Shown here: positions 10,645 through 31,101 of the stretch, piece after piece
How positions within the stretch are numbered: position 1 is the first letter of the stretch
How the letters are laid out: the number at the start of each line of letters is the position of its first letter
Source: an uncultured Saprospiraceae bacterium
GTDB lineage: Bacteria > Bacteroidota > Bacteroidia > Chitinophagales > Saprospiraceae
Length of the DNA stretch: 32,419 nucleotides
Direction of reading: 5' to 3'
NCBI GenBank assembly: GCA_937967625.1
Contig: CALCJP010000221.1
Location: 1 to 32,419 of the forward strand
The notes under the pieces: model-generated
Database searches by the model: none
Seen by the model: only the letters and a program-made list of their open reading frames with translations
What the model was told of the DNA's origin: nothing
Made by a program: the position numbers and the translations under genes

Positions 10645-10660
10645 TCTCCCTTTCGGGAAA
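10645..10660 (-). repeat. GNRA-loop hairpin element (minus strand)
   Basis: On the minus strand TTTCCC-GAAA-GGGAGA, five Watson-Crick pairs and one T.G. It lies between the terminator and the decayed small gene. Confidence 0.65.
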
Positions 10661-10700
10661 TAATCATAATTTAGAGGGAACCAAACATTAGCGAATTCCA

Positions 10701-10861
10701 ATGAAATCTAAATTCACTCTCTTCCTATTTCTCTTTCAGCAAGTTATGGTTTTTTCTACCTCAGTAACGGATTGAAAATCAAAGAACCATTTGGAGATAG
10801 ATTTACTATTGAAAAGCTGGAACCAATATCCCCGCCAACTAAAACTTATAAGCTGCCATAA
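10701..10861 (+). pseudogene. Possible frameshifted remnant of a small exported protein
   Basis: An ATG at 10701 starts a signal-peptide-like run (MKSKFTLFLFLFQQ) that stops at 10773-10775. Overlapping it in the +2 frame an open segment from 10712 to a TAA at 10859-10861 reads like real protein (SYGFFYLSNGLKIKEPFGDR, then FTIEKLEPISPPTKTYKLP). One indel between about 10725 and 10745 would join the two into a roughly 50-residue exported peptide or gene remnant. No family is recognised. The other explanation is chance coding potential in a non-coding gap. The 464-nt interval 10560-11024 otherwise holds only a terminator, a hairpin and a cruciform repeat. Confidence 0.35.
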
Positions 10862-10934
10862 AATAAACCTAAACTATGCCCCAACTACGCATTCTCAAAA
10901 GAGCAAGAAGAAATCAACCTGCCGTAAAAAACAA

Positions 10935-10996
10935 AGCCACGGATTCCCACAAATTTCACAGAAAAAAATCCGTGACCTCAGTGAAAATCCGTGGCT
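10935..10996. repeat. Cruciform repeat with AATCCGTGGCT arms
   Basis: Arms AGCCACGGATT (10935-10945) and AATCCGTGGCT (10986-10996) are perfectly complementary. Inside, TTTCAC and GTGAAA form a second stem and the word ATCCGTG recurs. CGCAACCC repeats follow up to the gene end at 11025. It lies downstream of the minus-strand gene and may serve as its terminator; the family is a generic intergenic repeat. Confidence 0.65.
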
Positions 10997-11024
10997 AAAC
11001 TCGCAACCCGAACCCCGCAACCCG

Positions 11025-12470: not shown

Positions 12471-12484
12471 GTGGCTCTTATTTT

Positions 12485-12500
12485 TCCGCCTTTCGGCAAA
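12485..12500 (-). repeat. GNRA-loop hairpin element (leader of the 481-aa gene)
   Basis: On the minus strand TTTGCC-GAAA-GGCGGA: four Watson-Crick pairs and two T.G. It sits 15 nt upstream of the minus-strand ATG at 12470, on the coding strand, the same distance as the rlmB copy. Confidence 0.65.
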
Positions 12501-12634: not shown

Positions 12635-12649
12635 CGGACTAAATAAAAA

Positions 12650-12689
12650 TGCAAGAGGCATACCGACTTTCGTCGAATGGCGTCTTGCA
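12650..12689 (+). promoter_or_regulatory. Structured 5' leader enclosing a GNRA-type hairpin
   Basis: Outer arms TGCAAGA (12650-12656) and TCTTGCA (12683-12689), with an inner CAT/ATG pair, enclose CGAC-TTTC-GTCG (12664-12675), whose minus strand is CGAC-GAAA-GTCG with a further T.G pair. The structure would fill the leader between the predicted start of transcription and the ATG at 12699. The core ATTCGACGAAAGTCGGT also occurs upstream of the M16 gene at 23655-23671. Confidence 0.55.
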
Positions 12690-12698
12690 AGTTAAATA

Positions 12699-14915
12699 AT
12701 GAGATCAATAATTTTCGCCTCCCTTCTTTTCTTTTCCTTTGGGGCTTTCGCCCAAAACGGCGTGAACAAAGAAAAGTACCGCCTAAAAATTGCCCGTGCA
12801 GTTGATGAGATAGTTTTGGATGGTCTGTTGCTGGAAGAAAGTTGGGCGAAAGCCGAAACCACCTCCCCATTTCAAAACAAATGGCCGACCGACATCGGCA
12901 GCCCACCCACGCAGACCATCATGCGACTTACCTACGATGATCAATTTGTTTATGTGAGTGCCTACTGCCACGAAGATAGCCCCAACTACATTATCGAAAC
13001 GCTAAAAAGAGATGCGTCTATCTGGGACTCAGATGGCTTATTCGTCTTCATAGATCCCGTCAATCAACAATCCAATGGATTTTTCTTTCACACCAGCGCA
13101 ATCGGAGTCCAATCAGAAGGACTCGTAAGAGTCAATGGCAGAAACCAACTCAGCCGAGATTGGGACAACAAATGGTTTGTAAAAACAGCCAGCCAGCCTA
13201 ATGGTGACTGGATCGTCGAGATGGCAATTCCATTCAAAACACTGCGCTATGACCCTTCGCTTGATGAGTGGGGAATAAATTTCCTGCGGGGCGATGTGGG
13301 TAATAATATGTTTTCCTCCTGGGCATTTGTGCCATTGCAATTCAGTGGTCCAGATTTGAGTTATGCAGGCACTTTGGAGTGGGATCATCCGCCGCCGTCA
13401 GTAAAGTCCAATTTTTCGATTATTCCGTACGTGACCGGAGGAGTCTCTAAAGACAATGAGGCAGATGATACCTCTACCCAGTCTCAATTCAATACAGGGT
13501 TGGATGGCAAAGTTGCCGTCACCAACTCCTTAAACTTAGACCTTACCGTCAATCCCGATTTCTCACAAATCGAGGTGGATCAGCAACAAACGAATCTGAC
13601 TCGATTCAGTTTGTTTTTCCCAGAGCGTCGTACCTTCTTTTTGGAGAATGCGGATATTTTTAATGATTTTGGATTGCGACCTGTACGTCCGTTTTTCTCT
13701 CGCCGCATTGGTTTAGATGATGATGCAGAACCGGTTCCGATTCTTTTTGGCGCTCGTTTGAGTGGCAATACCTCTGAGGACACGCGCATTGGTTTGATGA
13801 CCATGCAAACTGGAGCCAATGACGGAACGTCAGGGCAAAACTACTCCGTTGCTTCAGTTCATCAGCAGGTGCTTTCAAGATCGGTGGTGAAAGGAATCGT
13901 AATTAATAGGCAGGCTTATGGCACCGAAGGCTTTGAGCAAAATGATTTCGGAAGAAATGCAGGTTTGGAATTTCGATATGTCAAACCCGATGGAAATTTT
14001 TCCACTTGGTTGGGCTATCACCAATCCTTTACTCCTGAAAAGTTTAGTGATGCAGGGCTGCTCAATGCGGGATTTGGGTACGATACGAGAGTGTTTTCAT
14101 TTTCTCAATCGTTATTAGATTTGGGGAGTAATTTTATAGCCGACGCGGGGTTTAATCGCCGACTGGATAATTATGACGCCAAACGAGACACGACGGTGCG
14201 TATCGGCTACACACATTCTTTCAATGAGGTCTCGTATAAGATATTTCCCGAAAGGGAAAATAGTTTTGTTCAGTTTCATACCATCGGTGGTGAGTTTTTT
14301 AATGTATTCACTCGAGGCTTTGGCTTTAGTCTTTCTAACTCTGAAATCTTCTATCGTGCCTTTTTGAGAAATACTGCCCGGTTTAGATTAAAAGCTGAAT
14401 TGACTGCCGAGGAGCTGCCTTTTGAGACTAATTTACTGGGGGATGAGTTTGACTTTTTGCCGCAAGGTTGGTATCGATTTGCTACTGGCGAAATCAGCTA
14501 TGAATCCAATCAACGAAAATTTTTCTCCTATGAGATTGGTGCCGAAATCGGTGGTTTTTACAACGGCAGCTTGACTAAAATCGAAGGTGCGCTAAGATAT
14601 AGAACACAGCCATGGGGCAACTTTTCTGTTAATTTCGAACGCAACTTGGTGCGACTTCCCGACAACTATGGCTCTGCCGACATTTGGCTCGTTGGCCCAC
14701 GTATCGAAATCAATTTTAATAAAAGCATGTTTTGGACGACCTTCCTCCAATACAACACACAAAGCGACAACTTCAATATCAATAGTCGCTTCCAATGGCG
14801 CTACTCCCCGATGTCAGATTTGTTTTTGGTTTATACGGATAACTATGGAGTGGATAATTTTGGATTGGTGAATCGAGCGCTGGTTTTGAAGTTTAATTAT
14901 TGGTGGATGATTTGA
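12699..14915 (+). CDS. DUF5916 outer-membrane protein with N-terminal CBM9-like domain
   Basis: A 738-residue exported protein with signal peptide MRSIIFASLLFFSFGAFAQ. Residues about 27-215 form the carbohydrate-binding-9-like/DOMON-type domain usual for this family (IVLDGLLLEESWAKAE, DDQFVYVSAYCHED, WDSDGLFVFIDP, WIVEMAIPFKTLRYD, WGINFLRGD). The remaining ~500 residues match DUF5916, with the hallmark VNPDFSQIEVDQQQTNLTRF and FFPERRTFFLENADIF followed by many beta strands, predicted to be a large outer-membrane barrel. The last residues are aromatic (FNYWWMI). The function is unknown; the binding domain suggests glycan or heme contact, but that is inference. A perfect six-pair GAAA hairpin (14244-14259) lies in frame and encodes FPERENS. 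Confidence 0.88.
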   Translation: MRSIIFASLLFFSFGAFAQNGVNKEKYRLKIARAVDEIVLDGLLLEESWAKAETTSPFQNKWPTDIGSPPTQTIMRLTYDDQFVYVSAYCHEDSPNYIIETLKRDASIWDSDGLFVFIDPVNQQSNGFFFHTSAIGVQSEGLVRVNGRNQLSRDWDNKWFVKTASQPNGDWIVEMAIPFKTLRYDPSLDEWGINFLRGDVGNNMFSSWAFVPLQFSGPDLSYAGTLEWDHPPPSVKSNFSIIPYVTGGVSKDNEADDTSTQSQFNTGLDGKVAVTNSLNLDLTVNPDFSQIEVDQQQTNLTRFSLFFPERRTFFLENADIFNDFGLRPVRPFFSRRIGLDDDAEPVPILFGARLSGNTSEDTRIGLMTMQTGANDGTSGQNYSVASVHQQVLSRSVVKGIVINRQAYGTEGFEQNDFGRNAGLEFRYVKPDGNFSTWLGYHQSFTPEKFSDAGLLNAGFGYDTRVFSFSQSLLDLGSNFIADAGFNRRLDNYDAKRDTTVRIGYTHSFNEVSYKIFPERENSFVQFHTIGGEFFNVFTRGFGFSLSNSEIFYRAFLRNTARFRLKAELTAEELPFETNLLGDEFDFLPQGWYRFATGEISYESNQRKFFSYEIGAEIGGFYNGSLTKIEGALRYRTQPWGNFSVNFERNLVRLPDNYGSADIWLVGPRIEINFNKSMFWTTFLQYNTQSDNFNINSRFQWRYSPMSDLFLVYTDNYGVDNFGLVNRALVLKFNYWWMI
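14244..14259 (+). repeat. GNRA-loop hairpin element inside the DUF5916 gene
   Basis: TTTCCC-GAAA-GGGAAA, six perfect pairs, in frame without disrupting the gene (encodes part of IFPERENS). The identical sequence is intergenic at 27317-27332, which shows that the element is not an effect of coding constraint. Confidence 0.75.
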
Positions 14916-14936
14916 TTTTTCTAAGTAGGGTGAAGA

Positions 14937-15074
14937 GGAACGCGGAAGACGCGGACAGGCGCGGAATTTCGCGGATTTGCTTTGCGAGATAGCTCTGCGT
15001 GACTCTGCGGTTCTCTGCGCCACTCTGCGTAGCAAACAGCGAAAAATCATGACAATCCGCGTCATCAGCGTTCC
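14937..15074. repeat. 138-bp cruciform element overlapping the panE-like 3' end
   Basis: Terminal arms GGAACGCGGAAGACGCGGA (14937-14955) and TCCGCGTCATCAGCGTTCC (15056-15074) match except near the middle. A second pair, TTTGCTTTGCGAG and CTCTGCGTAGCAAA, lies inside with several CTCTGCG repeats. The right arm supplies the last codons (Glu-Arg) and the TGATGA double stop of the reductase gene. MITE-like, with no coding capacity. Confidence 0.7.
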
Positions 15075-17800: not shown

Positions 17801-17818
17801 TTCCCGCTTACGCGGAAA
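17801..17818 (-). repeat. GNRA-loop hairpin element with GTAA loop
   Basis: On the minus strand TTCCGC... stem TTTCCGC-GTAA-GCGGGAA: six Watson-Crick pairs and one T.G. The loop is GTAA, still GNRA. It ends 28 nt upstream of the ATG at 17847. Confidence 0.65.
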
Positions 17819-17846: not shown

Positions 17847-18275
17847 ATGTCAGCGGAGATTTTCTACCCAATCGAGGAGGCCGAAAAGCTGGTTGCCCAA
17901 TTCATGAATTGCACCCTTCCGGCAGATGAATGGGATCATGGCGGACACCTCGTCATGGGACTTTATATGCATGCCAAGCATGGTGATGCCGCTTTCGCGC
18001 AAATAAAAAAACATCTTCAAGCGTATGTCAAATCACTCGGCAAGGATGGCTATCACGAAACGATGACTCACTTTTGGCTATGGGCAATTCGGCATTTCCG
18101 AATGGAAATAAAAGATGGATTGACATGGACACAAACTAATTTGGATGACCTGATCTTTGATGACCAACTCACTCGCCGCAATCTTTGGCAAGACTACTAT
18201 TCAGAGGAGTTGATGATGTCCGAGCAAGCGAAAAAGGAATTTGTAGCGCCTGATAAAAAAGCTTTTTCAGAATGA
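17847..18275 (+). CDS. Conserved small protein with His motifs, function unknown
   Basis: A 142-residue cytoplasmic protein without signal peptide. It matches an uncharacterised family I recognise by WDHGGHLVMGLYM (residues 29-41), GYHETMTHFWLWAI (58-71) and a Trp/Tyr-rich C-terminal half. The three conserved histidines (two in WDHGGHL, one in GYHET) suggest a metal or catalytic site, but no reaction is known to me. Its length is near the family norm. It stands alone: DUF2461 lies convergent downstream, and AT-rich inverted repeats flank it at 17720-17756 and 18293-18328. A degenerate -7 element TACATTTA is at 17825-17832. Confidence 0.75.
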   Translation: MSAEIFYPIEEAEKLVAQFMNCTLPADEWDHGGHLVMGLYMHAKHGDAAFAQIKKHLQAYVKSLGKDGYHETMTHFWLWAIRHFRMEIKDGLTWTQTNLDDLIFDDQLTRRNLWQDYYSEELMMSEQAKKEFVAPDKKAFSE

Positions 18276-18387: not shown

Positions 18388-18416
18388 GGGTGGTCGCTTT
18401 GGCGGCTGCCCTTTTT
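18388..18416 (+). terminator. Intrinsic terminator after the 142-aa gene
   Basis: GGGTGGTCGC / GCGGCTGCCC forms ten pairs (three G.U) around TTTG, followed by TTTTT. Confidence 0.8.
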
Positions 18417-18431
18417 CTCGCTTTCGCGAAA
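18416..18431 (-). repeat. GNRA-loop hairpin element, inverted member of a pair
   Basis: On the minus strand TTTCGC-GAAA-GCGAGA, with one T.G. Together with 18440-18455 it forms a larger 14-pair stem around TGACCCT-like spacer, between convergent genes. Confidence 0.7.
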
Positions 18432-18439: not shown

Positions 18440-18455
18440 TTTCGCGAAAGCGAAA
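18440..18455 (+). repeat. GNRA-loop hairpin element, second member of the pair
   Basis: TTTCGC-GAAA-GCGAAA, six perfect pairs. It lies 46 nt past the DUF2461 gene end, head to head with the copy at 18416-18431. Confidence 0.8.
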
Positions 18456-19295: not shown

Positions 19296-19311
19296 TTTTC
19301 CGAAAGGAAAA
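19296..19311 (+). repeat. GNRA-loop hairpin element (leader of cyclase-family gene)
   Basis: TTTTCC-GAAA-GGAAAA, six perfect pairs, identical to 3282-3297, ending 30 nt upstream of the ATG on the coding strand. Confidence 0.8.
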
Positions 19312-20128: not shown

Positions 20129-20144
20129 TTCGCCTTTCGGCAAA
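20129..20144 (-). repeat. GNRA-loop hairpin element (before TPR gene)
   Basis: On the minus strand TTTGCC-GAAA-GGCGAA: five Watson-Crick pairs and one T.G. It ends 41 nt upstream of the ATG at 20186. Confidence 0.65.
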
Positions 20145-20939: not shown

Positions 20940-22055
20940 TTATTTCCCTGGATCCTTCCCACCTTTCAAGAAATCCTGAAAAGTTTTCAGCTTATCCCAA
21001 TCGCCTTTAGCGGCGAGGGCGGCTTGTTCAGCCCAAGTGCCTGGGTCATGCATTTTGTAACGAGAACCTGCCTCCGAAAGAATTTTTTTGAGTTTTTCGA
21101 ATTTGGTTTTGGATAATTTATTGAACGTCGTGATGTTGGAGTCGATGAGCAATTGGGCGATTTTTGGACCAATGCCTTCGATTTTTTTCAGGTCGTCTTT
21201 TCTTCTGGTGGCTTTTTTCGCGGGAGCTTTTTTGGTTGTGTTTTTTACTGGAGGCTTGCTTTGTGTTTTTGCAGTTGCCTTCAAGGGCGCTCTCTTTATG
21301 GGCGGAGTAGCTTCAGGGGCTGCTTTTTGAGGTGCCTTTTTGATGACTTTTTTAAGAGCAGGCTCTTCCTCAGAGGCAGCTACTTTTTTTACTGTCCTTC
21401 TGATTACCTTAGGAGCTGGAGCAGGTTCTGGTGCGGCGGCAGCCAAAGGGGTGGGTGCTGGTCTGGATTTTAAAGTCTGATTTTCTGATTTTAATTTATC
21501 TCTTTCTGCTTCCAGCCTGTTGATGATACTGTAAGCGCTGGTGAGGTCGGCGTCTTTTTTTGCCAACTTGGTTTTCATGGAGTAAATTTCGGTGCTCGAA
21601 TTGGCAGACGATTTTATTGATTCGACGGAAGTCGTCAAATCAGTGTTTCTAGACTTCAAGCCCAATATCTGATTTTCTAAATCTTCGATTTTTGTGTTGG
21701 AAGCAGATTGAGAAAGTTTGACTTTTTCGGTGTGCTCTTTTAAAACTGCATTTTCGTTGGTTAAGATTTGGTTTTGATCTTCGAATGCTTTTACGTCTTG
21801 GCGCAATTTTACGGTTTCGAGAGCTGACTTTTTCAGGTCAGTTTCTTTGAGCGCCATTTCTTCATTGAGGGTGGTGACTTGCGATTCGTATTGAGCTGCC
21901 AAGTCGGTTTGCTTACTGAGTTCCCCTTTGAGGCTTCGAATTTTGCTTTTCCAAATCAACCATGTAAAAAAAACTCCAAGGGCAAATCCCATCAATAATA
22001 TTGCTGTGGTTAGCTGCCAAGATAGAATGTTGAAAATATCAAAAAGGGCATCCAT
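20940..22055 (-). CDS. Membrane-anchored coiled-coil protein with C-terminal helix-hairpin-helix domain
   Basis: A 371-residue protein in four parts. One membrane helix (about 14-33, TAILLMGFALGVFFTWLIW) with a short N-terminus. A long coiled coil (about 40-200) rich in Glu, Lys, Leu and Asn. A low-complexity Ala/Lys/Pro linker (about 205-290, for example RRTVKKVAASEEE and KNTTKKAPAKKATRR). A C-terminal HhH domain (DDLKKIEGIGPKIAQLLIDS, then TFNKLSKTKFEKLKKILSEAG and DPGTWAEQAALAAKGDWDKL), of the type annotated as predicted 5' nuclease/H3TH or L21-like. The HhH domain probably binds DNA or RNA, so the protein could tether nucleic acid to the membrane; that is inferred. It is 179 nt downstream of the M16 gene. 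Confidence 0.8.
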   Translation of the reverse strand: MDALFDIFNILSWQLTTAILLMGFALGVFFTWLIWKSKIRSLKGELSKQTDLAAQYESQVTTLNEEMALKETDLKKSALETVKLRQDVKAFEDQNQILTNENAVLKEHTEKVKLSQSASNTKIEDLENQILGLKSRNTDLTTSVESIKSSANSSTEIYSMKTKLAKKDADLTSAYSIINRLEAERDKLKSENQTLKSRPAPTPLAAAAPEPAPAPKVIRRTVKKVAASEEEPALKKVIKKAPQKAAPEATPPIKRAPLKATAKTQSKPPVKNTTKKAPAKKATRRKDDLKKIEGIGPKIAQLLIDSNITTFNKLSKTKFEKLKKILSEAGSRYKMHDPGTWAEQAALAAKGDWDKLKTFQDFLKGGKDPGK

Positions 22056-22145: not shown

Positions 22146-22161
22146 TTTCACGAAAGTGAAA
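22146..22161 (+). repeat. GNRA-loop hairpin element (M16/HhH gap, copy a)
   Basis: TTTCAC-GAAA-GTGAAA, six perfect pairs, identical to 6521-6536. It lies 90 nt upstream of the HhH gene start; the GNRA strand is opposite to the genes. Confidence 0.8.
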
Positions 22162-22174
22162 ACCTCTTGCCGGC

Positions 22175-22192
22175 TTTCGCCGAAAGGCGGAA
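22175..22192 (+). repeat. GNRA-loop hairpin element (M16/HhH gap, copy b)
   Basis: TTTCGCC-GAAA-GGCGGAA, seven pairs including one T.G. An overlapping alternative hairpin GGC-TTTC-GCC (22172-22181) uses the same bases, so this site could fold in two exclusive ways. Confidence 0.7.
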
Positions 22193-22234: not shown

Positions 22235-23476
22235 CTATTCTTCATTTTTGCAATAGTGCAGGGTGCAACTATTTTCTTTGACGAGGATTTGTTTGGCGAC
22301 TCGTTGGATGTCTTCGTTGGTGACGGCTTGATATTTTTCGCCTTCCTGATTGAGCAGGGAAGCATCTTCCAGCACCTCATAGAATGCCAAATTCATGGCG
22401 CGTTGAGTGAGGCTCATCTCCGTAAAGACTAAGGTGCTTTCAGTTTTGTTTTTGATTTTCTGAAACTCTTTTTTCGCTACTTTTCGGCTTTTGAGTTTTT
22501 GGATTTCTTTCCAGATTTCTGTTTCTATCATCTTCAAAGTGAACCCTTCGGCTGGTTTGGCTTCGATGATGAAAAGCCCTGGATCCATGCTGCCACTGAT
22601 GTAGCAATCTATGTTCGAAACCATTTTCTTTTCTTTCAAAATTCGCTGATATAAACGCGAAGAAGGACCACTGCCCAAGATGTCCGACATCAGATCAATC
22701 GCATGGTAATCCTTGTTTTTTCTATCAGGCATGTGGAATGTCAAATAAAGCGAATCCACAGGCACATTAGCTTTATTGATACGCGTAACTGGCTGATTTT
22801 GAGTGGGTTCTTGAGGGAGCTTTCGCTCAATCGGCAATCCGTTTTCGATTTTGCCAAACCACTTTTCTACCAACTCAAAGACCTGCTCAGATTGGACATT
22901 GCCTGCAACTACGAGCACTGCGTTGTTGGGCAAATAGTATTTTTTGAAGAAGGAGCGCACATCCGCCAGTGTTGCTTTTTCGACATGTTCCGGTACTTTG
23001 CCAATCGTTGGCCAATTGTAAGGGTGTACTTTAAAAGCCATGTCTGCGAGGTGATGCCACACATCGCCATAAGGCTGATTGAGGCAAGTTTCCTTAAATT
23101 CCTCTACCACCACTTTTTGCTGGGTTGCCAAAGCTTTTTTATTGATGTTGAGATTTGCCATGCGATCGGCTTCGAGCCAGATGGCAGTTTCGATATTTTC
23201 GGCAGGCACGACGTTGTAGAAATTGGTCAGGTCAGCGTTTGTGAAGGCATTGCAATCACCACCCGCATTTTGGATGGGTTGGTCGAAGTTGGGTACTCGT
23301 TTCGTGCCTCCAAACATCAAGTGCTCAAATAGATGAGCAAAGCCCGTTTTGTCGGGCGACTCATCGCGCGCGCCCACATCATAGAGCAAATTGACCACCG
23401 CCATCGGCGTGCTCGCATCCTCATGTACCAATAATCTCAAACCGTTTTCTAAAGTATATTTTTTATAATCGACCAT
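22235..23476 (-). CDS. M16 (insulinase/pitrilysin-type) zinc peptidase, single-domain
   Basis: A 413-residue M16B-type protease. I start at the ATG at 23476 (MVDYKKYTLENGLRLLVHED); the frame runs on to 23602 but only through a CGAGAACTCGGGATT repeat. The inverted zinc motif HLFEH is at 48-52, and the distal ligand Glu lies in VVVEEFKE about 75 residues later. The second half (VPVDSLYLTFHMPDRKNKDY, LMSDILGSGPSSRLYQRIL) is the inactive-type M16 C domain. No signal peptide is visible from this start, so it is probably cytoplasmic, or the extension matters. Bacteroidota M16 genes often come as tandem pairs; here there is only one, so it may act as a homodimer. It is followed by the HhH gene. Confidence 0.88.
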   Translation of the reverse strand: MVDYKKYTLENGLRLLVHEDASTPMAVVNLLYDVGARDESPDKTGFAHLFEHLMFGGTKRVPNFDQPIQNAGGDCNAFTNADLTNFYNVVPAENIETAIWLEADRMANLNINKKALATQQKVVVEEFKETCLNQPYGDVWHHLADMAFKVHPYNWPTIGKVPEHVEKATLADVRSFFKKYYLPNNAVLVVAGNVQSEQVFELVEKWFGKIENGLPIERKLPQEPTQNQPVTRINKANVPVDSLYLTFHMPDRKNKDYHAIDLMSDILGSGPSSRLYQRILKEKKMVSNIDCYISGSMDPGLFIIEAKPAEGFTLKMIETEIWKEIQKLKSRKVAKKEFQKIKNKTESTLVFTEMSLTQRAMNLAFYEVLEDASLLNQEGEKYQAVTNEDIQRVAKQILVKENSCTLHYCKNEE

Positions 23477-23485
23477 TTTTTTTTT

Positions 23486-23582
23486 GATTTCGAGAACTTG
23501 GGATTTTGAGAACTCGGGATTTCGAGATTTCGAGAACTCGGGATTATGAGAAGTCTTGAACTCTCGAAATCCCGAACTCTCG
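23486..23582. repeat. GATTTCGAGAACTCGG tandem/inverted repeat upstream of M16 gene
   Basis: Sixteen-base units GATTTCGAGAACTTGG (23486-23501), GATTTTGAGAACTCGG (23502-23517) and GATTTCGAGAACTCGG (23526-23541), with a half unit between, face an inverted CTCTCGAAATCCCGAACTCT (23561-23580). The words match the CGAGAGTTCGAGA hairpin at 1933-1986. It would form a hairpin in the M16 leader. Confidence 0.7.
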
Positions 23583-23655
23583 CTTTCCAAACCAAGTCGC
23601 AAATTTCGATCTTTTTATCAATTTTTATCAAAAAATAAATTAGCTCCCACCAAAA

Positions 23656-23669
23656 CCGACTTTCGTCGA
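23656..23669 (-). repeat. GNRA-loop hairpin element (M16/TonB divergent region)
   Basis: On the minus strand TCGAC-GAAA-GTCGG: four Watson-Crick pairs and one T.G. The 17-nt core ATTCGACGAAAGTCGGT is identical to that in the DUF5916 leader. Confidence 0.65.
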
Positions 23670-23736
23670 ATCTTCCATACAAGCGCATAAAAAACTTACC
23701 ACCGGTGGAAATGTAACTAATAGAGGTTTTTCTTCA

Positions 23737-23752
23737 TTTCACGAAAGTGAAA
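23737..23752 (+). repeat. GNRA-loop hairpin element (upstream of tonB)
   Basis: TTTCAC-GAAA-GTGAAA, six perfect pairs, 85 nt before the tonB ATG on the coding strand. Confidence 0.8.
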
Positions 23753-23837: not shown

Positions 23838-24593
23838 ATGAAAAGGACTGACATTTCCAGATTACGCCGCAATCGGGCTTTGCATTTTCAGATTGGACTC
23901 ATCACTGCACTTAGCTTTTCTTTGGTTTGCCTGAATTGGACCTCTTTCGAGGAATCTCCCAACTCGCGACCCATACTTGAACTTGACCCTCTGGTTGAAA
24001 TCGAAATCGTACCGAACACCTTGCAAAAGAAGAAAACTCCACCGCCGCCTCCGCCACCTGAGAAAATGGATTTGACGAAAGTCGAAATCGTTGATGAAGA
24101 CATTGAAGCCCCAACGTTTTTGGATGATATTGAGATTGAAAAGATGGAAGTGGACAAAAATGTCATTGTCAAAAAAAAAGAGGTTAAGCAAGAAATTCCA
24201 ACGCCTCCACCTCCGCCACCCATCAAACGCGAAGAGGAAAAACCCTATTTACGAGTAGAGCGCATGCCCAAATTCGGCGATTGCTCCGAATTCAAAACCG
24301 AAACCGAACGCAACGAGTGCTCTGGCAAAAACCTCCTCGAATATGTCTATTCGAAGATTAAATACCCAAGTATGGCTCGCGAAAATCAAGTCGAGGGCAT
24401 GGTGGTGGTAAGTTTTGTAGTTGATAAGAATGGCAAAGTCAAAGACTTGGTGATGAGACGCGATATTGGTGCTGGCTGCGGCAATGAAGTCCTACGAGTT
24501 TTGGAAGACCTTCCAGATTGGAAACCTGGCTCGCAGCAAGGAAGAAAAGTGGCAGTGATGTACAACTTGCCGGTAAAGTTTAGTTTGCAATGA
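23838..24593 (+). CDS. Energy transducer TonB family protein
   Basis: A 251-residue TonB. One membrane helix near the N-terminus (about 18-36, QIGLITALSFSLVCLNW) anchors it in the inner membrane. The periplasmic part has two proline blocks (TPPPPPPPEK and PTPPPPPPIK) separated by an acidic stretch. A TonB C-terminal domain (about 165-251) follows: LLEYVYSKIKYPSMARENQV, EGMVVVSFVVDKNGKVKDL, and YNLPVKFSLQ at the end. Two cysteines (CSEFKTETERNEC) precede the domain, a common feature in Bacteroidota TonB proteins. It passes proton-motive energy to outer-membrane receptors; no ExbB, ExbD or receptor gene is adjacent. Terminators follow at 24601-24669. Confidence 0.88.
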   Translation: MKRTDISRLRRNRALHFQIGLITALSFSLVCLNWTSFEESPNSRPILELDPLVEIEIVPNTLQKKKTPPPPPPPEKMDLTKVEIVDEDIEAPTFLDDIEIEKMEVDKNVIVKKKEVKQEIPTPPPPPPIKREEEKPYLRVERMPKFGDCSEFKTETERNECSGKNLLEYVYSKIKYPSMARENQVEGMVVVSFVVDKNGKVKDLVMRRDIGAGCGNEVLRVLEDLPDWKPGSQQGRKVAVMYNLPVKFSLQ

Positions 24594-24738: not shown

Positions 24739-24793
24739 CCAAAAGTCATTTTCCGAAAGGGAGAAAAATTATCGCATTCAAATTAAGACATTT
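24739..24793 (+). repeat. Upstream repeat of the secreted-protein pair, copy A
   Basis: A 55-nt segment from CCAAAAGTCATTT to GACATTT matches 27307-27361 at about 46 of 55 positions without gaps. It lies 234 nt before the first Omp28-like gene and contains the GNRA hairpin at 24749-24764. The 433-nt gap 24594-25026 holds two terminators, this repeat and the 24934-24952 hairpin. Confidence 0.75.
24749..24764 (+). repeat. GNRA-loop hairpin element in upstream repeat A
   Basis: TTTTCC-GAAA-GGGAGA, four Watson-Crick and two T.G pairs on the GNRA strand. Its counterpart in repeat B is perfect (TTTCCC-GAAA-GGGAAA), so the pairing survived the divergence of the duplicates. Confidence 0.7.
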
Positions 24794-24933: not shown

Positions 24934-24952
24934 TTTTCGCCTCATGCGAGAA
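24934..24952 (+). repeat. Hairpin with family-like stem but CTCAT loop
   Basis: TTTTCGC-CTCAT-GCGAGAA, seven pairs with one T.G. The stem resembles the GNRA family but the loop does not; a diverged or unrelated copy. Confidence 0.45.
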
Positions 24953-25026: not shown

Positions 25027-26994
25027 ATGAAGAAATTTTTACTTTCAATGATTGGGATTTTGGTTTTCGCATTAGGAACCAATTTTGCTCAAAAAACTAC
25101 GCTGATTGAAAATTTTACACAGGCTTCTTGCGTGCCATGTGTTTTTTGGAATCCTAGAATTGATGACATCATGGCGACCAACCCTGATGCAATTTTAGTA
25201 AGGTATCAAACTAGTTGGCCTGGTTTTGACCCTATGCACAATCAAAATGAAGCTGATCCAAACGCAAGAGTTGATTACTATGGTGTTACGGCAGTTCCAA
25301 GGGTTTTCTTTAATGGAGCCACACAATTTGATCCAATTGGTGCGGGAATACAAAATTGGGATCAATGGACTGACCTCTTTACTACTAGTATTTCTAACGG
25401 CGCCAACGAAATGACGGCTTTAGATATTAAGCTGACACATGATTTTTCTTTTGATAAGAAAACTGCTGACATTAAAATGGTAGTTACCAATACTTCTGCG
25501 GATGATTTTACCGGAGCAGGCTCAGTAGCTCACCTATTACTTCTTGAAAAAGAAATCATATTCCCTGAAGCACCAGGCTCTAATAGCGAAACTGAATTTA
25601 CCAATGTGGTAAGAAAGATGTTGCCCAACGCAATGGGGACTCCAATGGCTGATATTGCAGCAGGAGATTCTATGGTAATGGATTTGACTGATGTTGATGT
25701 GCCTGATTACCTCTACAATTACGGAGGTTTAGAAGCGGTAGCGTTTATTCAAAATAACAATACGAAAGAAGTTTTGCAAGCTGCCAAAAGCGAGGCTCAA
25801 GCAATAGATGGACCTGATGCTGCCTTAACCGTATTAGCTACAGCTCCAACCTCTTACTGTGATTATGATTATGCCCCTAAAGTTTCTATCACAAATATGG
25901 GTACAGCAGATATTACAGAAATGACTCTTGATTATGTTTTAAATTCTAACCAGCCAGTTTCTCTACCTTGGACAGGTACATTGGCTCCAGGAATGACCGA
26001 AACCTTTGATTTTCCAGCCATTACACTTACACCACCTTCCACCGTTATTCAATATGCTATCACTTCTGTAAATGGTTCTACTGACTCAGATTTTAATAGC
26101 CTAAATGACATCTCTGCAGTTGAATCTTTTAGTTCTTTGACTTCTTCCCCAACAAGAGAAGAAGTATCTGAAGGGTTCAATATTAGTGAAATAGGAGAAG
26201 TGCCAGCAGGAGTCATTCTTGAAAACCCAGATAACATTCGAGTATTTACTGTTGATGGTAGCATTAGTACTGCTGTCTCCTGGCCCTTAGGAGGTTTTGG
26301 TAACTCTGATGGATGTATGAGATTTGATTATTATGGCATCCAATCAGGACAAGCAACCCTAATTATGGATCAGATCAATCTATCAAATGTTACCTCAGCG
26401 ACCCTTGTTTTCTCTCATGCTTACGCCCAATCTATCAACGAACCTGATAGATTAGAGGTAGTAATTTCTACTGATTGTGGTTCGACTTGGTCTCCTATTT
26501 GGGATAAAGATGGAGCTGCTTTAGCTACTCATCCACCTACTGGTGACCAATCTCCACGCTTTTACCCAATGCCAACAGATTGGGTTCAAAATGTGGTTGA
26601 CTTAAGTTTCTTGGATGGTGCACCTGAAGTAACAGTCGCATTTAGAGGAACCTCTGCGTGGGGTAACTCACTTTACCTTGACGATATCCAAATCGGTGCT
26701 GGTTTAGTTGACGCAGAAGATGTCAACCCATTGGAAGGAAAAGTTGAATTCTTCCCCAATCCAGCATCTGATAACTTGAATATCCAAATCACTTTGGAAG
26801 AGGCAAGCCCAATTTCAGCTGAGATTTTCTCCCTTACGGGAAATAGAGTAGCAACTATTGAAACTAACGCTACTTATCCTTCAGGTACTCATAATCTTAA
26901 TTGGAATATCGCTGACCAAGCGAACGGAATGTACTTGGTAAGAGTAAGAACTGCTTCTGGCGAAATCACTGAAAGAGTTTCTATTTTGAAGTAA
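25027..26994 (+). CDS. Secreted Omp28-like thioredoxin-fold protein with type IX sorting domain (copy 1)
   Basis: A 655-residue exported protein with signal peptide MKKFLLSMIGILVFALGTNFAQ. Residues about 23-150 look like the Omp28-related thioredoxin fold: ENFTQASCVPCVFWNP holds the CxxC pair, and TAVPRVFFNG has the cis-proline position. A CARDB/Ig-like domain follows (about 260-370, APKVSITNMGTADITEMTLDY), then a jelly-roll resembling choice-of-anchor domains (about 375-565, ATLVFSHAYAQ, NSLYLDDIQIG). The end is a type A sorting domain (VEFFPNPASDNLNIQI to VRVRTASGEITERVSILK). Expected to be secreted and surface-bound; thiol-redox activity is possible through CVPC. Its tandem paralogue begins 440 nt later, and codons here are more A/T-ended. 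Confidence 0.87.
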   Translation: MKKFLLSMIGILVFALGTNFAQKTTLIENFTQASCVPCVFWNPRIDDIMATNPDAILVRYQTSWPGFDPMHNQNEADPNARVDYYGVTAVPRVFFNGATQFDPIGAGIQNWDQWTDLFTTSISNGANEMTALDIKLTHDFSFDKKTADIKMVVTNTSADDFTGAGSVAHLLLLEKEIIFPEAPGSNSETEFTNVVRKMLPNAMGTPMADIAAGDSMVMDLTDVDVPDYLYNYGGLEAVAFIQNNNTKEVLQAAKSEAQAIDGPDAALTVLATAPTSYCDYDYAPKVSITNMGTADITEMTLDYVLNSNQPVSLPWTGTLAPGMTETFDFPAITLTPPSTVIQYAITSVNGSTDSDFNSLNDISAVESFSSLTSSPTREEVSEGFNISEIGEVPAGVILENPDNIRVFTVDGSISTAVSWPLGGFGNSDGCMRFDYYGIQSGQATLIMDQINLSNVTSATLVFSHAYAQSINEPDRLEVVISTDCGSTWSPIWDKDGAALATHPPTGDQSPRFYPMPTDWVQNVVDLSFLDGAPEVTVAFRGTSAWGNSLYLDDIQIGAGLVDAEDVNPLEGKVEFFPNPASDNLNIQITLEEASPISAEIFSLTGNRVATIETNATYPSGTHNLNWNIADQANGMYLVRVRTASGEITERVSILK

Positions 26995-27006
26995 TAACTT
27001 TTTGAA

Positions 27007-27081
27007 TTTTAAATCTAAGTACAGGACAAAAGTGAAATAAGAGGTTTACTCGTATGTTTTGTCCTGTACTCAGATTTAAAA
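27007..27081. terminator. Long hairpin after Omp28-like copy 1
   Basis: Arms of 25 nt at 27007-27031 (TTTTAAATCTAAGTACAGG, then ACAAAA) and 27057-27081 pair at 24 of 25 positions around a 25-nt loop, 12 nt after the stop codon. It may protect the mRNA end or terminate in both directions. A comparable outer stem follows copy 2. Confidence 0.7.
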
Positions 27082-27254
27082 TGAAAAACCGCTTGGAGCA
27101 GACACATGGTTGGATAAGGCGACGAGGCAATGAAAAATGAGTGGTTAGAAACACATTAGGCATACAATCTGTCTTATCACTATTCTTTGTTAACATCTTA
27201 GAGAAACTGCCGGATACGAGACTACGCTCGGTGGTGTGAGAGGACGAAAAGACC

Positions 27255-27306: not shown

Positions 27307-27361
27307 CCAAAAGTCATTTCCCGAAAGGGAAAAAATAAATAGCTTTCAATTTAGGACATTT
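27307..27361 (+). repeat. Upstream repeat of the secreted-protein pair, copy B
   Basis: Counterpart of 24739-24793, here 72 nt before the ATG of copy 2, so about 160 nt closer to the gene than in copy A. Confidence 0.75.
27317..27332 (+). repeat. GNRA-loop hairpin element in upstream repeat B
   Basis: TTTCCC-GAAA-GGGAAA, six perfect pairs, identical to the copy inside the DUF5916 gene. Confidence 0.8.
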
Positions 27362-27433: not shown

Positions 27434-29374
27434 ATGAAGAAATTTTTACTCGTTTTAGTGGCGATAACCACTTTTGCCCTTGCGGCAAAATCGCAAACAG
27501 CCAAAATGGCTATCGTGGAGGAGTTTACAAATGCCTCTTGCCCTCCGTGCGCAGCACAAAACCCTGCTTTTGATGCCCTAATGGCAGCCAACAAAGACAA
27601 AGCCGTCGTATTGAAATATCAGGTTTGGTTTCCTGGTTTTGACCCAATGTATGAGCATAATACTATTGACGTAAGAGCTCGTGCTGACTACTATGATGGT
27701 GGATTTGGAGTTCCTAACGGAAGAGTTGAAGGTGCAGATGTAGGAATTGTTGCGAATGTCACTCAGGCTTCAATCGACGCCGCTTCGGCACCAATGAGTC
27801 CTTTAGACATCAAATTGACTCATAACGCTGACTTTGACAAAAAGACAATGACTATCAATTGTGTCATCAAAAATGTTTCTCCTGACATCTGGATGGGTGC
27901 AGATCACGTTGCACAAATTTCTATCATTGAAGAAGATATTGTCTTCAACGAGCCTCCTGGGAGTACAGATGAAACTCATTTTGTAAGCGTAATGAGACAA
28001 ATGTTGCCTTCCGCTACCGGAACTGCAATGATGGATATTATGCCTGGTGACTCAATGGTTATCGAATTTGCAGACGTTGATGTGCCTGATTACATCTATA
28101 ACTTTGGAGAAATTGGAGTTGTCGCTTTTGTTCAAAATAACACAACAAGAGCTTCTGTTCAAGCTGCAGTTAGTGCACCACAACCAGTTCAAGGTGTTGA
28201 TGCTGGAGTTACAAGTATGACAGCTGGGCCAAGTTCTTTTTGTGATTATAACCTAACACCACGTGTTGAAATTACAAATAATGGTTTGGTTGAGGCCACT
28301 GAAATGGAAATCGCATACTCTATCAACGGCGGTTTTCCTGTAGGACAAATGTGGACAGGAGCATTAGCAGCAGGACAAACAGAAACGGTTGAGTTTCCGG
28401 CGATTACCCTAATGCCGCCTTCAACCTCAATTTCTTACAGCATTTTGACAGTGAACGGTTCAACAGATATTGATTACAACAACATCAATAACGAAACCTC
28501 AGCTGAAAACTTCGTGAACCTTACTGCCAATCCTACCAGAGAGGATGCAATGGAAGGTTTTAATATCTCAGAAATTGGTGAAGTACCAGCAGGAGTAATT
28601 ATGACCAACCCGGCTGTAAGAATCTTTACCGTTAATAATGCCATCAACCCAACCGTCGTTACTTGGCCTTTGGGAGGACATGGTAATTCTGACGGTTGCG
28701 TGCGTTATGACTTCTACGCAATGAATGCAGGCGAGAACGGTATCGTAATGCTCGATCAGGTTAGCTTGGCAAACGTGACAAGTTCTACACTTGTTTTCTC
28801 TCACGCTTACGCGCAATATACCACTGAGCCAGACCGATTGGAAGTATTAGTCTCTACTGATTGTGGAGCGACTTGGTCAACAGTTTGGGATGCTGCAGGT
28901 GCTGCATTAGCAACACGCCCAGCAGTAAATCCAGATAGATTCTACCCAAGACCGACAGAGTGGGCTCAAAACGTAGTCGATTTAAGCTTCTTAGACGGAG
29001 CATCTGAGGTTACTATTGGGTTTAGAGGAACTTCTGCTTTCGGTAACTCTCTTTACTTGGATGACATCCAAATCGGAGCAGGATTGGTTAATGCTGATGA
29101 CGTAAGTCCTCTTGCAGGAAAAGTTGCTTTCTTCCCAAATCCAGTATCTGACAACCTAACTATTGAAGTGACCTTAGAAGAGGCTAGCCCAATTACCGCT
29201 GAAGTTTTTGACCTTTCGGGAAAAAGAGTTGCAGTTATCCAAAGCAATGCTAACTACCCAAGTGGTACTCACAATTTGACTTGGAACACAACTGACCAAT
29301 CAAACGGTATGTATATGGTAAGAGTATTGACCGAAGCAGGTGAATACACTGAAAGAGTTTCTGTATTGAAATAA
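27434..29374 (+). CDS. Secreted Omp28-like thioredoxin-fold protein with type IX sorting domain (copy 2)
   Basis: A 646-residue paralogue of the preceding gene with the same domain order: signal peptide MKKFLLVLVAITTFALAAKSQ, thioredoxin-like domain with EEFTNASCPPCAAQNP (CPPC), CARDB/Ig-like domain, jelly-roll (TLVFSHAYAQ, NSLYLDDIQIG) and type A sorting domain (VAFFPNPVSDNLTIEV to VRVLTEAGEYTERVSVLK). The thioredoxin part differs most: the cis-proline region reads GGFGVPNGRVEG rather than TAVPRVFFNG, so the two probably differ in redox behaviour or partner. The jelly-roll and sorting domains are nearly identical between copies. Upstream sequence was duplicated too. It ends at a large hairpin and then a strong terminator. 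Confidence 0.87.
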   Translation: MKKFLLVLVAITTFALAAKSQTAKMAIVEEFTNASCPPCAAQNPAFDALMAANKDKAVVLKYQVWFPGFDPMYEHNTIDVRARADYYDGGFGVPNGRVEGADVGIVANVTQASIDAASAPMSPLDIKLTHNADFDKKTMTINCVIKNVSPDIWMGADHVAQISIIEEDIVFNEPPGSTDETHFVSVMRQMLPSATGTAMMDIMPGDSMVIEFADVDVPDYIYNFGEIGVVAFVQNNTTRASVQAAVSAPQPVQGVDAGVTSMTAGPSSFCDYNLTPRVEITNNGLVEATEMEIAYSINGGFPVGQMWTGALAAGQTETVEFPAITLMPPSTSISYSILTVNGSTDIDYNNINNETSAENFVNLTANPTREDAMEGFNISEIGEVPAGVIMTNPAVRIFTVNNAINPTVVTWPLGGHGNSDGCVRYDFYAMNAGENGIVMLDQVSLANVTSSTLVFSHAYAQYTTEPDRLEVLVSTDCGATWSTVWDAAGAALATRPAVNPDRFYPRPTEWAQNVVDLSFLDGASEVTIGFRGTSAFGNSLYLDDIQIGAGLVNADDVSPLAGKVAFFPNPVSDNLTIEVTLEEASPITAEVFDLSGKRVAVIQSNANYPSGTHNLTWNTTDQSNGMYMVRVLTEAGEYTERVSVLK

Positions 29375-29377
29375 TAT

Positions 29378-29449
29378 CTATTTTGAATTTTATTTTCCTC
29401 CCGAAGCGAGTTCGGGGCAGGTTTTCGGAAAATGGATAGTTCAAAATAG
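29378..29449. terminator. Compound hairpin after Omp28-like copy 2
   Basis: Outer arms CTATTTTGAA (29378-29387) and TTCAAAATAG (29440-29449), middle arms ATTTTCC/GGAAAAT and an inner CCCGAA-GCGAG-TTCGGG stem. It starts 3 nt after the stop codon. The opening TTTTGAATTTTA is shared with the hairpin after copy 1. Confidence 0.6.
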
Positions 29450-29479
29450 CTTTATAAGATAAGAATATTCCAAACAGTG

Positions 29480-29512
29480 GGGTGGCTACAAGTAATTGTA
29501 GCCACCCTTTTT
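29480..29512 (+). terminator. Strong intrinsic terminator before rfaE2
   Basis: GGGTGGCTACAA / TTGTAGCCACCC, 12 perfect pairs around GTAA, followed by TTTTT. Confidence 0.9.
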
Positions 29513-29545
29513 GGTTTAATAGATAAAATTTGATTTTTTCGCACT

Positions 29546-30031
29546 ATGATTGAAAACATCAGCGCCAAAATTCAGGACAAAGACGAAGCTGAAAAATTAA
29601 TCAATGGCTGGCACTTAAAAGGAGATAGCATTGTGTTTACCAATGGTTGTTTTGATATGTTGCATTATGGTCACATCGACTATTTGGCGAAAGCCAAAAA
29701 ATTGGGGAATCGCCTCGTCGTAGGATTGAATAGTGACGACTCCGTCAGGAGGCTCAAAGGCAACCACCGTCCAATCAATGACTTAGCGACGCGCAGTCAT
29801 TTATTAGCAGCGTTGCAGTTTGTGGATTTGGTGGTGATATTTGAAGAAGACACGCCCTTGGGGTTGATTCAACAACTTCGACCCGACATCCTCGTAAAAG
29901 GAGGGGATTACCAAATCAACCAAATTGTAGGTGCAGATTTTGTCTCAGCGAATGGCGGCAAAGTACTGAACTTGCCTTTCGTAGAGGGATATTCTACCAC
30001 CAACATCGAGCAAAAAATCAAAAACCAATGA
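29546..30031 (+). CDS. rfaE2: D-glycero-beta-D-manno-heptose 1-phosphate adenylyltransferase
   Basis: A 161-residue nucleotidyltransferase that activates heptose 1-phosphate with ATP to ADP-heptose for lipopolysaccharide core synthesis; it corresponds to the C-terminal half of E. coli HldE (RfaE). Visible motifs are [13 protein letters not shown] (31-43), with the HxGH signature at 40-43, [13 protein letters not shown] (about 60-72), the [12 protein letters not shown] region, and [12 protein letters not shown] (about 113-124), which is diagnostic for this enzyme. The kinase half is not in this window. Its stop codon overlaps the ATG of the Nif3-family gene by 4 nt. A perfect GAAA hairpin (29683-29698) encodes LAKAKK. 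It follows a strong terminator, so its promoter must lie in 29513-29545, where TAAAATTTG is an imperfect -7. Confidence 0.93.
29683..29698 (+). repeat. GNRA-loop hairpin inside rfaE2
   Basis: TTTGGC-GAAA-GCCAAA, six perfect pairs, in frame as YLAKAKK. Coding constraint could account for this one, as AKAKK is compatible with the family. Confidence 0.5.
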
Positions 30032-31101
30032 CGATAAAAGAGATAACCAATTACCTGGAAATGATTGCGCCGGGAGCGTTTCAGGAAGGGTATGATAACT
30101 CGGGGTTGATTGTAGGGAGACCTGAGATGGAGGTGACCGGAGTGGTGGTTTGTTTAGATTCGACGGAGCATGTGATCGACGAGGCGATAGCCAAAAAATG
30201 TAATTTAGTCATCGCTCATCATCCTATAGTATTTAAAGGATTGAAGCGATTCAATGGACGCAACTACGTGGAGCGAACCATCATCAAAGCCATCAAAAAT
30301 GACATAGCCATCTATGCGATTCATACCAATCTGGACAACGTGTTTAGAAAAGGAGTCAATACCAAAATTGCTGAACGAATCGGCTTAGTCAACACCCAAA
30401 TTTTAGCGCCAAAGCAAAACCTCTTAAAGCTTTTTTGTTTTGTCTCTACTGATAAAAGTGATGTTTTAAGAGCCAAACTTTTTGAAGCCAAGGCGGGCGT
30501 AGTGGGGGAGACCACTGACTTGAGTTACGCCTCGCTGGGAGTTGGGACTCAAAAAGGAAGTGGCAGTGGGCAGGTGAAGTTGGAGGTAATCTTTGAGGCG
30601 CATCGAAAAAATCAACTGATTCGACTGCTTCAGGAAAACCTTAGTCCTGATGAACTTGTTTATGATATTGTAAAAATAGAAAATCAAAATCCGCACGTAG
30701 GGTCAGGTATGGTGGGAGATTTGGCGAAAGCCATGAGTCCACTCTCGTTTTTGAAAAAACTGAAGGAATCCATGCGAATTGATTGCATAAAATACACGCG
30801 ACTCCCAGACAAGAACGTGAAGCGAATTGCAGTCTGTGGAGGTTCGGGAGGTTTTTTGTTGCGTCACGCCATTTCCGCGAAAGCGGATGTTTTCATCACT
30901 GCCGATTACAAGTATCATGAGTACTTTGATGCTGACGGTCAGATAGTGATTGCAGACATCGGGCACTACGAAAGCGAGCAATTTACCATTAACCTTATTT
31001 TTGACATATTATCAAAGAAATTTCCTACTTTTGCGCCCGCTTCCGCGGAATCGCGACTATTCAAAACGGAAATCAACACCAATCCAGTTAATTACCTTTA
31101 G
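30028..31101 (+). CDS. Nif3-like dinuclear metal-centre protein (YbgI/YqfO family)
   Basis: A 357-residue member of the Nif3/DUF34 family, whose proteins form toroidal hexamers with a two-metal site. The metal-ligand motifs are in place: [12 protein letters not shown] (about 63-74), HTNLDN (about 98-103) and the C-terminal [10 protein letters not shown] (about 310-319). An insert of roughly 100 residues in the middle (about 125-230) is the extra domain found in the longer YqfO-type members. Often labelled GTP cyclohydrolase 1 type 2, a doubtful name. It overlaps rfaE2 by 4 nt and precedes the zinc-ribbon gene, a frequent Bacteroidota pairing. Hairpins of the GNRA family lie in frame at 30722-30733 (LAKAM), 30874-30887 (ISAKAD) and 31036-31049 (minus strand, ASAES). 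Confidence 0.9.
31000..31033 (+). promoter_or_regulatory. Predicted promoter for the zinc-ribbon gene inside the Nif3 3' end
   Basis: TTTG (31000-31003), 22 nt, TACTTTTG (31026-31033), then CGCCCGC. It fits TTTG...TAnnTTTG with slightly long spacing, within the upstream coding region, followed at once by a hairpin at 31036-31049. Confidence 0.5.

Follow-up and report, generated by a model that had tools for sequence, protein, structure and literature searches.

A short mini-hairpin element repeated across the genome of an uncultured Saprospiraceae bacterium, a candidate DNA-level signal held by base pairing

The stretch analyzed here (the window) is the whole of contig CALCJP010000221.1, 32,419 nucleotides long, one of the 278 contigs of a 3.08-Mb draft genome of an uncultured Saprospiraceae bacterium (GCA_937967625.1, referred to as G000). 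It carries 44 copies of a short hairpin element, whereas 20 dinucleotide shuffles of the same sequence gave a mean of 0.5. Copies were counted with the rule TTnnnC-GNAA-G, in which pair 2 is Watson-Crick and pair 3 either Watson-Crick or wobble, the pairs being numbered outward from the loop. The element is very probably a real and unusual signal, acting at the DNA level and conserved in structure. An earlier reading of this DNA (the original prediction) had listed thirteen hairpins whose imperfect pairs were all T.G when read on the GNRA-loop strand, and had proposed that this strand folds, as RNA or as single-stranded DNA. The copies of the window are the following, imperfect pairs being read on the loop strand and earlier positions given in brackets:

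1017-1032, plus strand, hairpin element
1192-1207, minus strand, GCAA loop, T.G
1708-1723, plus strand, T.C at pair 4
1723-1738, plus strand, T.T at pair 5
3282-3297, plus strand, hairpin element
3462-3477, plus strand, T.G then T.T
4033-4048, minus strand, GTAA loop, T.G
6163-6178, plus strand, GGAA loop, T.T
6521-6536, plus strand, hairpin element
6641-6656, plus strand, hairpin element
7658-7673, minus strand, T.T
10503-10518 (10505), plus strand, T.G at pair 4, then T.C and T.C
10645-10660 (10645), minus strand, T.G
12485-12500 (12485), minus strand, two T.G
12662-12677 (12663), minus strand, T.G then T.T
12740-12755, minus strand, T.C
12842-12857, plus strand, in a gene, G.G, ungapped against an orthologue
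14244-14259, plus strand, perfect, in the gene at 12699-14915, ungapped against the L079 orthologue and with a one-base gap against L080
14456-14471, plus strand, in a gene, GCAA loop
17599-17614 (17599), plus strand, T.G
17802-17817 (17801), minus strand, GTAA loop, T.G
17987-18002, minus strand, G.G
18416-18431 (18416), minus strand, left half of a divergent pair, T.G
18440-18455, plus strand, right half of the divergent pair with 18416-18431, the ATTT motifs facing each other across a fixed 6-nt gap
19296-19311, plus strand, hairpin element
20129-20144 (20129), minus strand, T.G
21621-21636, plus strand, GGAA loop, T.T
22146-22161, plus strand, hairpin element
22169-22184, minus strand, overlapping 22176-22191, T.G then T.C
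22176-22191 (22175), plus strand, T.G
22815-22830, minus strand, T.C
23655-23670 (23656), minus strand, T.G then T.T
23737-23752, plus strand, hairpin element
23939-23954, minus strand, T.T
24071-24086, plus strand, T.G
24749-24764 (24749), plus strand, T.G at pairs 3 and 5
26828-26843, minus strand, GTAA loop, T.G
27317-27332, plus strand, hairpin element
28801-28816, minus strand, GTAA loop, G.T and T.G
29683-29698, plus strand, perfect, in a gene, ungapped against three homologues
30720-30735, plus strand, T.T
30873-30888, plus strand, in a gene, ungapped against a homologue
31035-31050 (31036), minus strand, GGAA loop, T.G then T.C
32397-32412 (32397), plus strand, GGAA loop

The count was extended to an own-genome sample made of the window and 60 further stretches (61 sequences, 723,571 bases, 7,726 of them masked, leaving about 716 kb of readable sequence). 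A first batch of contigs was chosen from a list of pattern matches, several of them for close pairs, and the remaining contigs were taken by number; the two groups agree, with 1.25 and 1.30 elements per readable kb, respectively, and 17 close pairs each. The sample holds 916 elements, against 16.2 in its shuffles (mean of five) and 19 when it is reversed. As a control, the two inner pairs were crossed, and 12 elements then passed in the window and 266 in the sample, symmetric stems (CC/GG) being able to pass such a control as well. Over the whole genome, the pattern TTTNNCGAAAGNNAAA has 650 matches and its reversed form 9. The density of 1.28 elements per kb of readable sequence corresponds, by extrapolation from the sample, to about 3,900 copies genome-wide.

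Based on our own calls of open reading frames with codon scores, used for this sample and for the relative G072 in place of a published gene finder, 62% of the elements (569 of 916) lie within genes, the density being 0.96 per kb in coding and 2.72 per kb in non-coding sequence. The elements ignore the direction of genes. This is illustrated by 285 sense and 284 antisense copies in 487 predicted genes, and by 91 sense and 96 antisense copies between co-directional genes; of the others, 115 lie between genes in divergent or convergent arrangement, 6 at the edge of a gene and 39 at contig ends. No trend along the gene was seen in the sample when positions were grouped by fifths, nor did element strand correlate with GC skew (r = 0.05, 53 sequences), which is a weak proxy of the replichore in this draft (r = 0.26 with gene direction). 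The largest element-free gap in the readable sample measures 5,027 bp and ends at a contig end, about what random placement would give at such a density with both strands pooled. Among the ten proteins encoded in the four largest gaps, no mobile DNA was recognized, and three matched a secretion sorting domain, one of them just below the cut-off. Two of these gaps (L044, 3205-8232; L051, 7952-12328) span large proteins with such matches, the one in L051 falling just under the cut-off. Besides, when viral contigs were scanned with a single exact copy of the element, two of them matched.

Once the loop and three pairs are imposed, the consensus of the 5′ arm is yATTT (A 66%, T 91, 91 and 69%), the facing 3′ positions being A in only about half of the cases. 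The element is more complete between genes, where it runs y-A85-T-T-T87, with two free stem bases before C-GAAA-G and two free bases after it, and ends in A70, A58 and A77 ahead of an A-rich stretch. The loop is exactly four bases long, since this length gave 1,409 cases against 565 with crossed pairs, whereas lengths of 2, 3, 5, 6 and 7 gave ratios of 1.0–1.2. A C-G pair closes 808 of the 906 GNAA loops with a standard closing pair. In C-G-closed G..A loops, the third base is A in 808 cases, C in 42 (28 of them GACA), T in 3 and G in 2. A GNRA loop kept for its stability in RNA should admit GNGA, which is almost absent; GNRA, the name given to the loop in the original prediction, is therefore a misnomer, and the loop is better described as GNAA or GACA.

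The stem is defined by pairing rather than by its letters. The sample has 609 ATTTnnCGNRAG sites, a selection that ignores pairing; 591 of them are Watson-Crick at pair 2 (226 expected from base frequencies) and 508 at pair 3 (196 expected); all four Watson-Crick types occur at these two pairs and covary. Pair 4, which lies outside the selection, also tracks its left base (C-G 126 of 155, G-C 55 of 77, T-A 403 of 609). For the 44 window elements (39 distinct rows), pairs 2 and 3 of which belonged to the selection rule, the number of cells paired, the number of cells changed on both sides and the covariation score exceeded 500 of 500 shuffles, and the named structure also stood above its slid versions in cell pairing and in covariation score; the count of pairs with changes on both sides was no higher than in the shuffles, 363 of 500 reaching the window value. 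A compensatory change was found at one in-gene site (L007, position 7936), where TTTGCCGAAAGGCAAG faces TTTACCGAAAGGTAAA in the orthologue from the congener G004, i.e., a G-C pair replaced by A-T with the same amino acids encoded.

The imperfect pairs indicate which strand folds. Twelve of the thirteen hairpins first listed do carry a GNRA-type tetraloop with T.G on the loop strand. The exception, at 24934, has T.G as well, but its loop is five nucleotides long (CTCAT, read by eye) and it is no copy of the element. The wider statement that every imperfect pair is T.G fails once the six pairs of all 44 elements are considered: the 54 non-Watson-Crick cells comprise 24 T.G, 13 T.C, 13 T.T, 2 G.G and 2 G.T. 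The T.C and T.T cases (e.g., 1708, 6163, 7658, 12740, 22815 and 23939) had presumably been read as marking where the stem stops. In the window, neither C.A nor A.C is found among the 54 cells, an absence that does not extend to the genome. Indeed, when these pairs were tabulated by strand over the sample, as had been proposed, at pair 3 of sites with pair 2 paired, 43 T.G and 23 G.T were counted against 15 C.A and 3 A.C. Wobble pairs thus outnumber their mirror images 66 to 18 (p = 1e-7), equal numbers being expected without a strand effect. Pair 2 offers too few non-Watson-Crick pairs for such a comparison (4 wobble and 1 mirror, p = 0.4).

Farther out, the same bias is stronger and has a second source. 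Pair 4 comprises 403 T.A, 110 T.G, 71 T.T and 25 T.C, with T.G against C.A at 110 to 19, and pair 5 comprises 246 T.A, 159 T.G, 113 T.T and 72 T.C, with T.G against C.A at 159 to 2. Part of the T.G bias is therefore explained by the left-arm T of pairs 4 and 5, conserved whether paired or not, while the rest reflects tolerance of wobble on one strand. With one exception (24749, at pair 3), the T.G pairs of the twelve hairpins sit at these confounded pairs. The T.G observation is correct and partly confounded; the bias is real, and narrower than claimed. Because the T side is conserved as sequence, the T.G count alone is no proof of single-stranded DNA. Since pairs 2 and 3 covary and the wobble excess at pair 3 lies outside the conserved 5′ arm, the folding strand does appear to be the one with the loop. 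Of the two forms proposed for it, RNA is contradicted by the sense/antisense balance, seen in genes here and in G072 (55/55) and between co-directional genes, so that single-stranded DNA is the half that survives. The element would act as DNA, most likely with its loop strand single and folded, because it ignores gene direction and tolerates wobble on the loop strand.

Spacing in this genome is regular on each strand taken separately. When positions were kept and strands permuted, neighboring elements were found to switch strand 513 times against 429.5 ± 14.8 expected (z 5.7), and the coefficient of variation (CV) of same-strand spacing was 0.859 against 0.987 ± 0.026 (z -4.9). Both effects persisted when the elements were thinned to distances of at least 300 bp (z 3.9 for alternation and -3.3 for CV), in intergenic elements alone (3.0 and -2.8) and in the contigs taken by number (3.6 and -3.4). 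Over distances of 200–2000 bp, same-strand pairs reach 0.69–0.87 of expectation and opposite-strand pairs 0.81–1.23. Each strand thus has its own roughly regular set of elements, about one per 1.5 kb.

Comparison with orthologues in two congeners (those of 130 matches with 40% identity or more, some elements being counted in both) bears on the origin of the copies within genes. An indel was found in 4 of 83 element-orthologue comparisons (4.8%), against 3.3% of 4,150 control stretches from the same genes, and amino-acid identity was 0.50 in elements against 0.61 in controls. With indels near the control level and low amino-acid identity, in-gene copies therefore arise by substitution at less constrained sites. 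In 7 of the 79 comparisons without a gap, the orthologue has the element too, and the higher density here suggests that most copies were gained in this genome rather than lost in the congeners.

Some copies are arranged in pairs. Thirty-five divergent pairs lie at exactly 24 bp from start to start in the form AAATr-n4-yATTT, each side with its own stem, whereas the other orientations at this offset gave 0, 1 and 1 pairs. Their gene contexts (-- 11, ++ 10, +- 7, -+ 4, genic 2, contig end 1) roughly match the background (-- 125, ++ 100, +- 62, -+ 81). At the partner offset, AAAT occurs in 16 of the 272 unpaired intergenic elements; twelve neighboring offsets gave 5.5 on average.

The density of the element is patchy among relatives. 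The congeners G001–G004 have 26–35 pattern matches against 3–9 for the control, and G005 has 5 against 3. Pair 2 is Watson-Crick at 76 of 121 sites in G001 (32 expected) and 51 of 90 in G004 (24 expected); an alternative hairpin “dialect” was looked for in these two congeners and not found. Their contigs were picked from homology matches, two of those of G004 from transposase matches, which may bias their densities. Sixteen named genomes were reached through one exact copy of the element. Among them, two Saprospiraceae stand out, HH_bin16 (G063; 295 matches against 13) and ALOHA_ZT_62 (G072; 160 against 12), together with four Dokdonia genomes (125–199 against 3–9). Another uncultured Saprospiraceae (G075; 27 against 3) gives the same counts as G001 and is probably the same genome, and the other nine have 1–13 matches against 0–11. 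The elements of G072 show the same ATTT, GNAA and covariation, and 110 of 125 lie in genes, 55 in each direction, on contigs picked from the pattern-match list, so that their density may be biased. None of 395 genomes drawn from the phylum comes near 650 matches, the next highest, G033, having 65; G031, in the list of relatives, has 76.

Dokdonia was considered as a second lineage and set aside as different, the stem in D. pacifica being mostly one fixed word. This 5.5-Mb genome (G070) has 158 pattern matches against 7 reversed, and 95 of the 100 listed have a TTTCGC-initial stem, often with C.A at pair 3, contrary to the wobble rule; the other 5 listed keep an A-T pair 2. Judging from the stems of this one Dokdonia genome, the TTTCGC motif is probably a separate iterated word.

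Other repeats and hairpins share the window. A 32-bp inverted repeat at 26995-27095 (AAGTACAGGACAAAA ... TTTTGTCCTGTACT) is a member of a dispersed family, for which BLAST gave 8 pieces in the own-genome sample, including the two of this repeat, 15 in each of the G001 and G004 samples and none in that of G072. Self-folding arrays of 8-base units (GATTTCGA / GAACTCGG) at 1905-1995 and 23480-23600 have matches in L002 of the same genome and in the congener G001, and none in the G004 sample. A repeated GCGGA-rich stretch at 14925-14990 gave 4 BLAST pieces in each of the G000 (own copy counted), G001 and G004 samples, with many weak matches in the congeners. Finally, a long GC-rich hairpin at 29479-29508, which has a 13-bp stem and a GTAA loop and precedes a short T run, may be an ordinary intrinsic terminator.

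By analogy with known systems, the element as a whole is best read as a strand-specific DNA signal that would work like a DNA uptake sequence, the folded strand being recognized; we give this a probability of roughly 0.4. Tentatively, the copies may constitute a genome-wide self-recognition signal, read as a folded single DNA strand and kept on each strand by uptake or recombination drive. In an equally tentative formulation, any sequence with yATTT and a three-pair, C-G-closed GNAA mini-hairpin might serve, at a spacing of about 1.5 kb, in one Bacteroidota lineage. The signal would consist of yATTT, a mini-hairpin of three covarying pairs, the C-G closing a GNAA or GACA loop, and a purine- or A-rich 3′ side. 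A receptor on the natural-transformation route, or one acting on single-stranded DNA after uptake, would bind the folded strand and favor self DNA, and copies born by mutation would spread through recombination of the preferred DNA, up to one per about 1.5 kb per strand. Such an uptake drive would account for spread by substitution, for the tolerated amino-acid cost and for the patchy density, and the reading of one folded strand would account for per-strand spacing and wobble. We infer the single-stranded state in the cell, the receptor or reader protein, and the uptake bias. Of the competence genes, ComEC and DprA were searched for, and both were found in G000.

Several observations weigh against an uptake-like, folded-strand signal. 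To our knowledge, a folded uptake signal has no precedent, the iterated signals USS (uptake signal sequences), DUS (DNA uptake sequences), HIP1 (highly iterated palindrome) and Chi all being fixed words. The Gram-negative uptake machine binds double-stranded DNA, according to passages of PMC7811141, and known uptake sequences are orientation-biased within genes according to the abstract of PMC2346458, whereas the motif here shows no such bias. ComEC and DprA are each present in 9 of 10 genomes, motif-dense or not, and therefore neither tracks the motif. The CV effect is weak when genic elements are taken by themselves (z -1.6; alternation z 2.9), and the 125 elements of G072, at a density four times lower, showed no per-strand regularity (68 of 121 neighbors alternate, CV 0.98). 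At pair 3, A.G is commoner than A-T (31 vs 20), a misfit to simple pairing; the same order occurs in G072 (13 vs 9). The ViennaRNA DNA energies of the two strands differ by only 0.6–0.7 kcal/mol in the four examples folded. Moreover, the source organism is known as a draft genome that is 64% complete, and the gap check of the sample found no element-poor foreign island, the mark of recent acquisition.

The rival that survives best is an intracellular, strand-specific signal of recombination, repair or replication, i.e., a Chi-like site or a priming or strand-loading hairpin, acting on single-stranded DNA exposed by resection or at forks. Such a signal fits nearly as well, although we consider it rather unlikely. 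The even per-strand spacing would then be selected directly, and single-strand folding and the occurrence of elements throughout the readable sample, with no gap above 5,027 bp, speak in its favor. Chi, an octamer without structure, favors the leading strand and acts strand-specifically on single-stranded DNA; the element resembles it in strand specificity and putative single-stranded action, and differs in being structured. No orientation bias of the element was seen, either by GC skew (a weak proxy here) or by gene direction. Replication-linked signals usually do show such a bias, and the congeners get by with few copies.

An iterated motif driven by methylation or mismatch repair, like HIP1 and the alternate HIPs of cyanobacteria, would also be highly iterated, acquire in-gene copies by substitution and vary in density among relatives. 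However, HIP1 is a fixed palindrome, a symmetric octamer tied to methyltransferases according to the abstract of PMC4390886. Here, the stem letters vary and covary, wobble is tolerated, and the motif is asymmetric between strands and defined by its fold, which makes this explanation improbable. A mutational by-product is slightly more so: template switching that perfects imperfect palindromes would yield complementary arms on both strands and within genes, but the inner three pairs are the most complementary, conservation of the outer left arm does not depend on its pairing, and ATTT, the C-G closure and GNAA are demands on sequence. Besides, the same-strand repulsion over 200–2000 bp requires selection or drive.

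A mobile element is very improbable. The REP (repetitive extragenic palindromic), BIME and REPIN elements, mobilized by RAYT (Y1) transposases, are short hairpins with a conserved 5′ foot that form inverted pairs at fixed spacing, and our element shares the hairpin, the foot and such pairs (the 35 above), with four Y1_Tnp matches in G000 as a possible IS200-like mover. Nevertheless, 569 of 916 copies lie in genes, with indels there at about the control rate, so that they were not inserted, and the stem sequences differ freely among copies. Over 20 genomes, the presence of Y1_Tnp is unrelated to motif density: it was not found in the motif-rich G063 and is present in the motif-poor G006, G007 and G017. 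Least probable of all is a cis-acting RNA hairpin (an element of untranslated regions, a terminator or a processing site), for which the C-G-closed, GNRA-like loop of four bases and the one-strand wobble would speak, against the balance of strands in genes (285/284 and 55/55), the near absence of GNGA with GACA present, the lack of a U-tract beside an A-rich intergenic 3′ flank, and the absence of any Rfam match in the window at gathering thresholds.

The loop itself has a physical counterpart. The d(cGNNAg) mini-hairpins, such as d(GCGAAAGC), are exceptionally stable in DNA with stems of only 2–3 bp, and share their loop form and C-G closure with the elements described here. We know them from biophysics and aptamers, and know of no case where they serve as a genome-wide signal. 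No description of the element studied here was found in the literature among the matches listed, most subscription journals lying outside the coverage.

As a distribution, the element is of a known kind, close to DNA uptake sequences; what would be new is a signal recognized by its fold. USS of Pasteurellaceae and DUS of Neisseriaceae likewise occur about once per kb, equally in both orientations around the chromosome, with many copies in genes, a higher density between them than expected, some close inverted pairs and an origin by substitutions; they also have an AT-rich flank and are patchy among relatives. They differ in being fixed linear words and in an uptake that begins on double-stranded DNA; here, the stem letters are free but must pair, and the spacing is regular per strand. 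The intragenic orientation bias reported for them (PMC2346458) is also absent here. In H. influenzae, passages of PMC1939737 place 65% of uptake sequences in open reading frames without orientation bias, with non-coding DNA enriched over expectation and about 10% as inverted repeats, and propose point mutations rather than insertion as their origin. The same text cites even spacing for an intracellular role, then judges it less even than this role requires. Uptake sequences are spaced by about 1,000 bp, and a single strand passes ComEC (PMC7811141, same passages). For Neisseria, DUS often form close inverted pairs, and many are argued in parts of PMC2397512 to arrive by recombination and not by point mutation in place. 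Within the Bacteroidota, some members are naturally competent, and Riemerella columbina shows a preference for self DNA for which no signal is confirmed, according to passages of PMC7965970.

By estimate, base pairing and a loop maintain a few thousand sites, both within coding sequence and outside it. Should the fold be read by a protein, the genome would harbor a structure-specific DNA recognition system at the scale of a whole genome, and the Bacteroidota would have a candidate self-DNA tag. The spread in density among related genomes makes gain and loss of the element testable by comparison.

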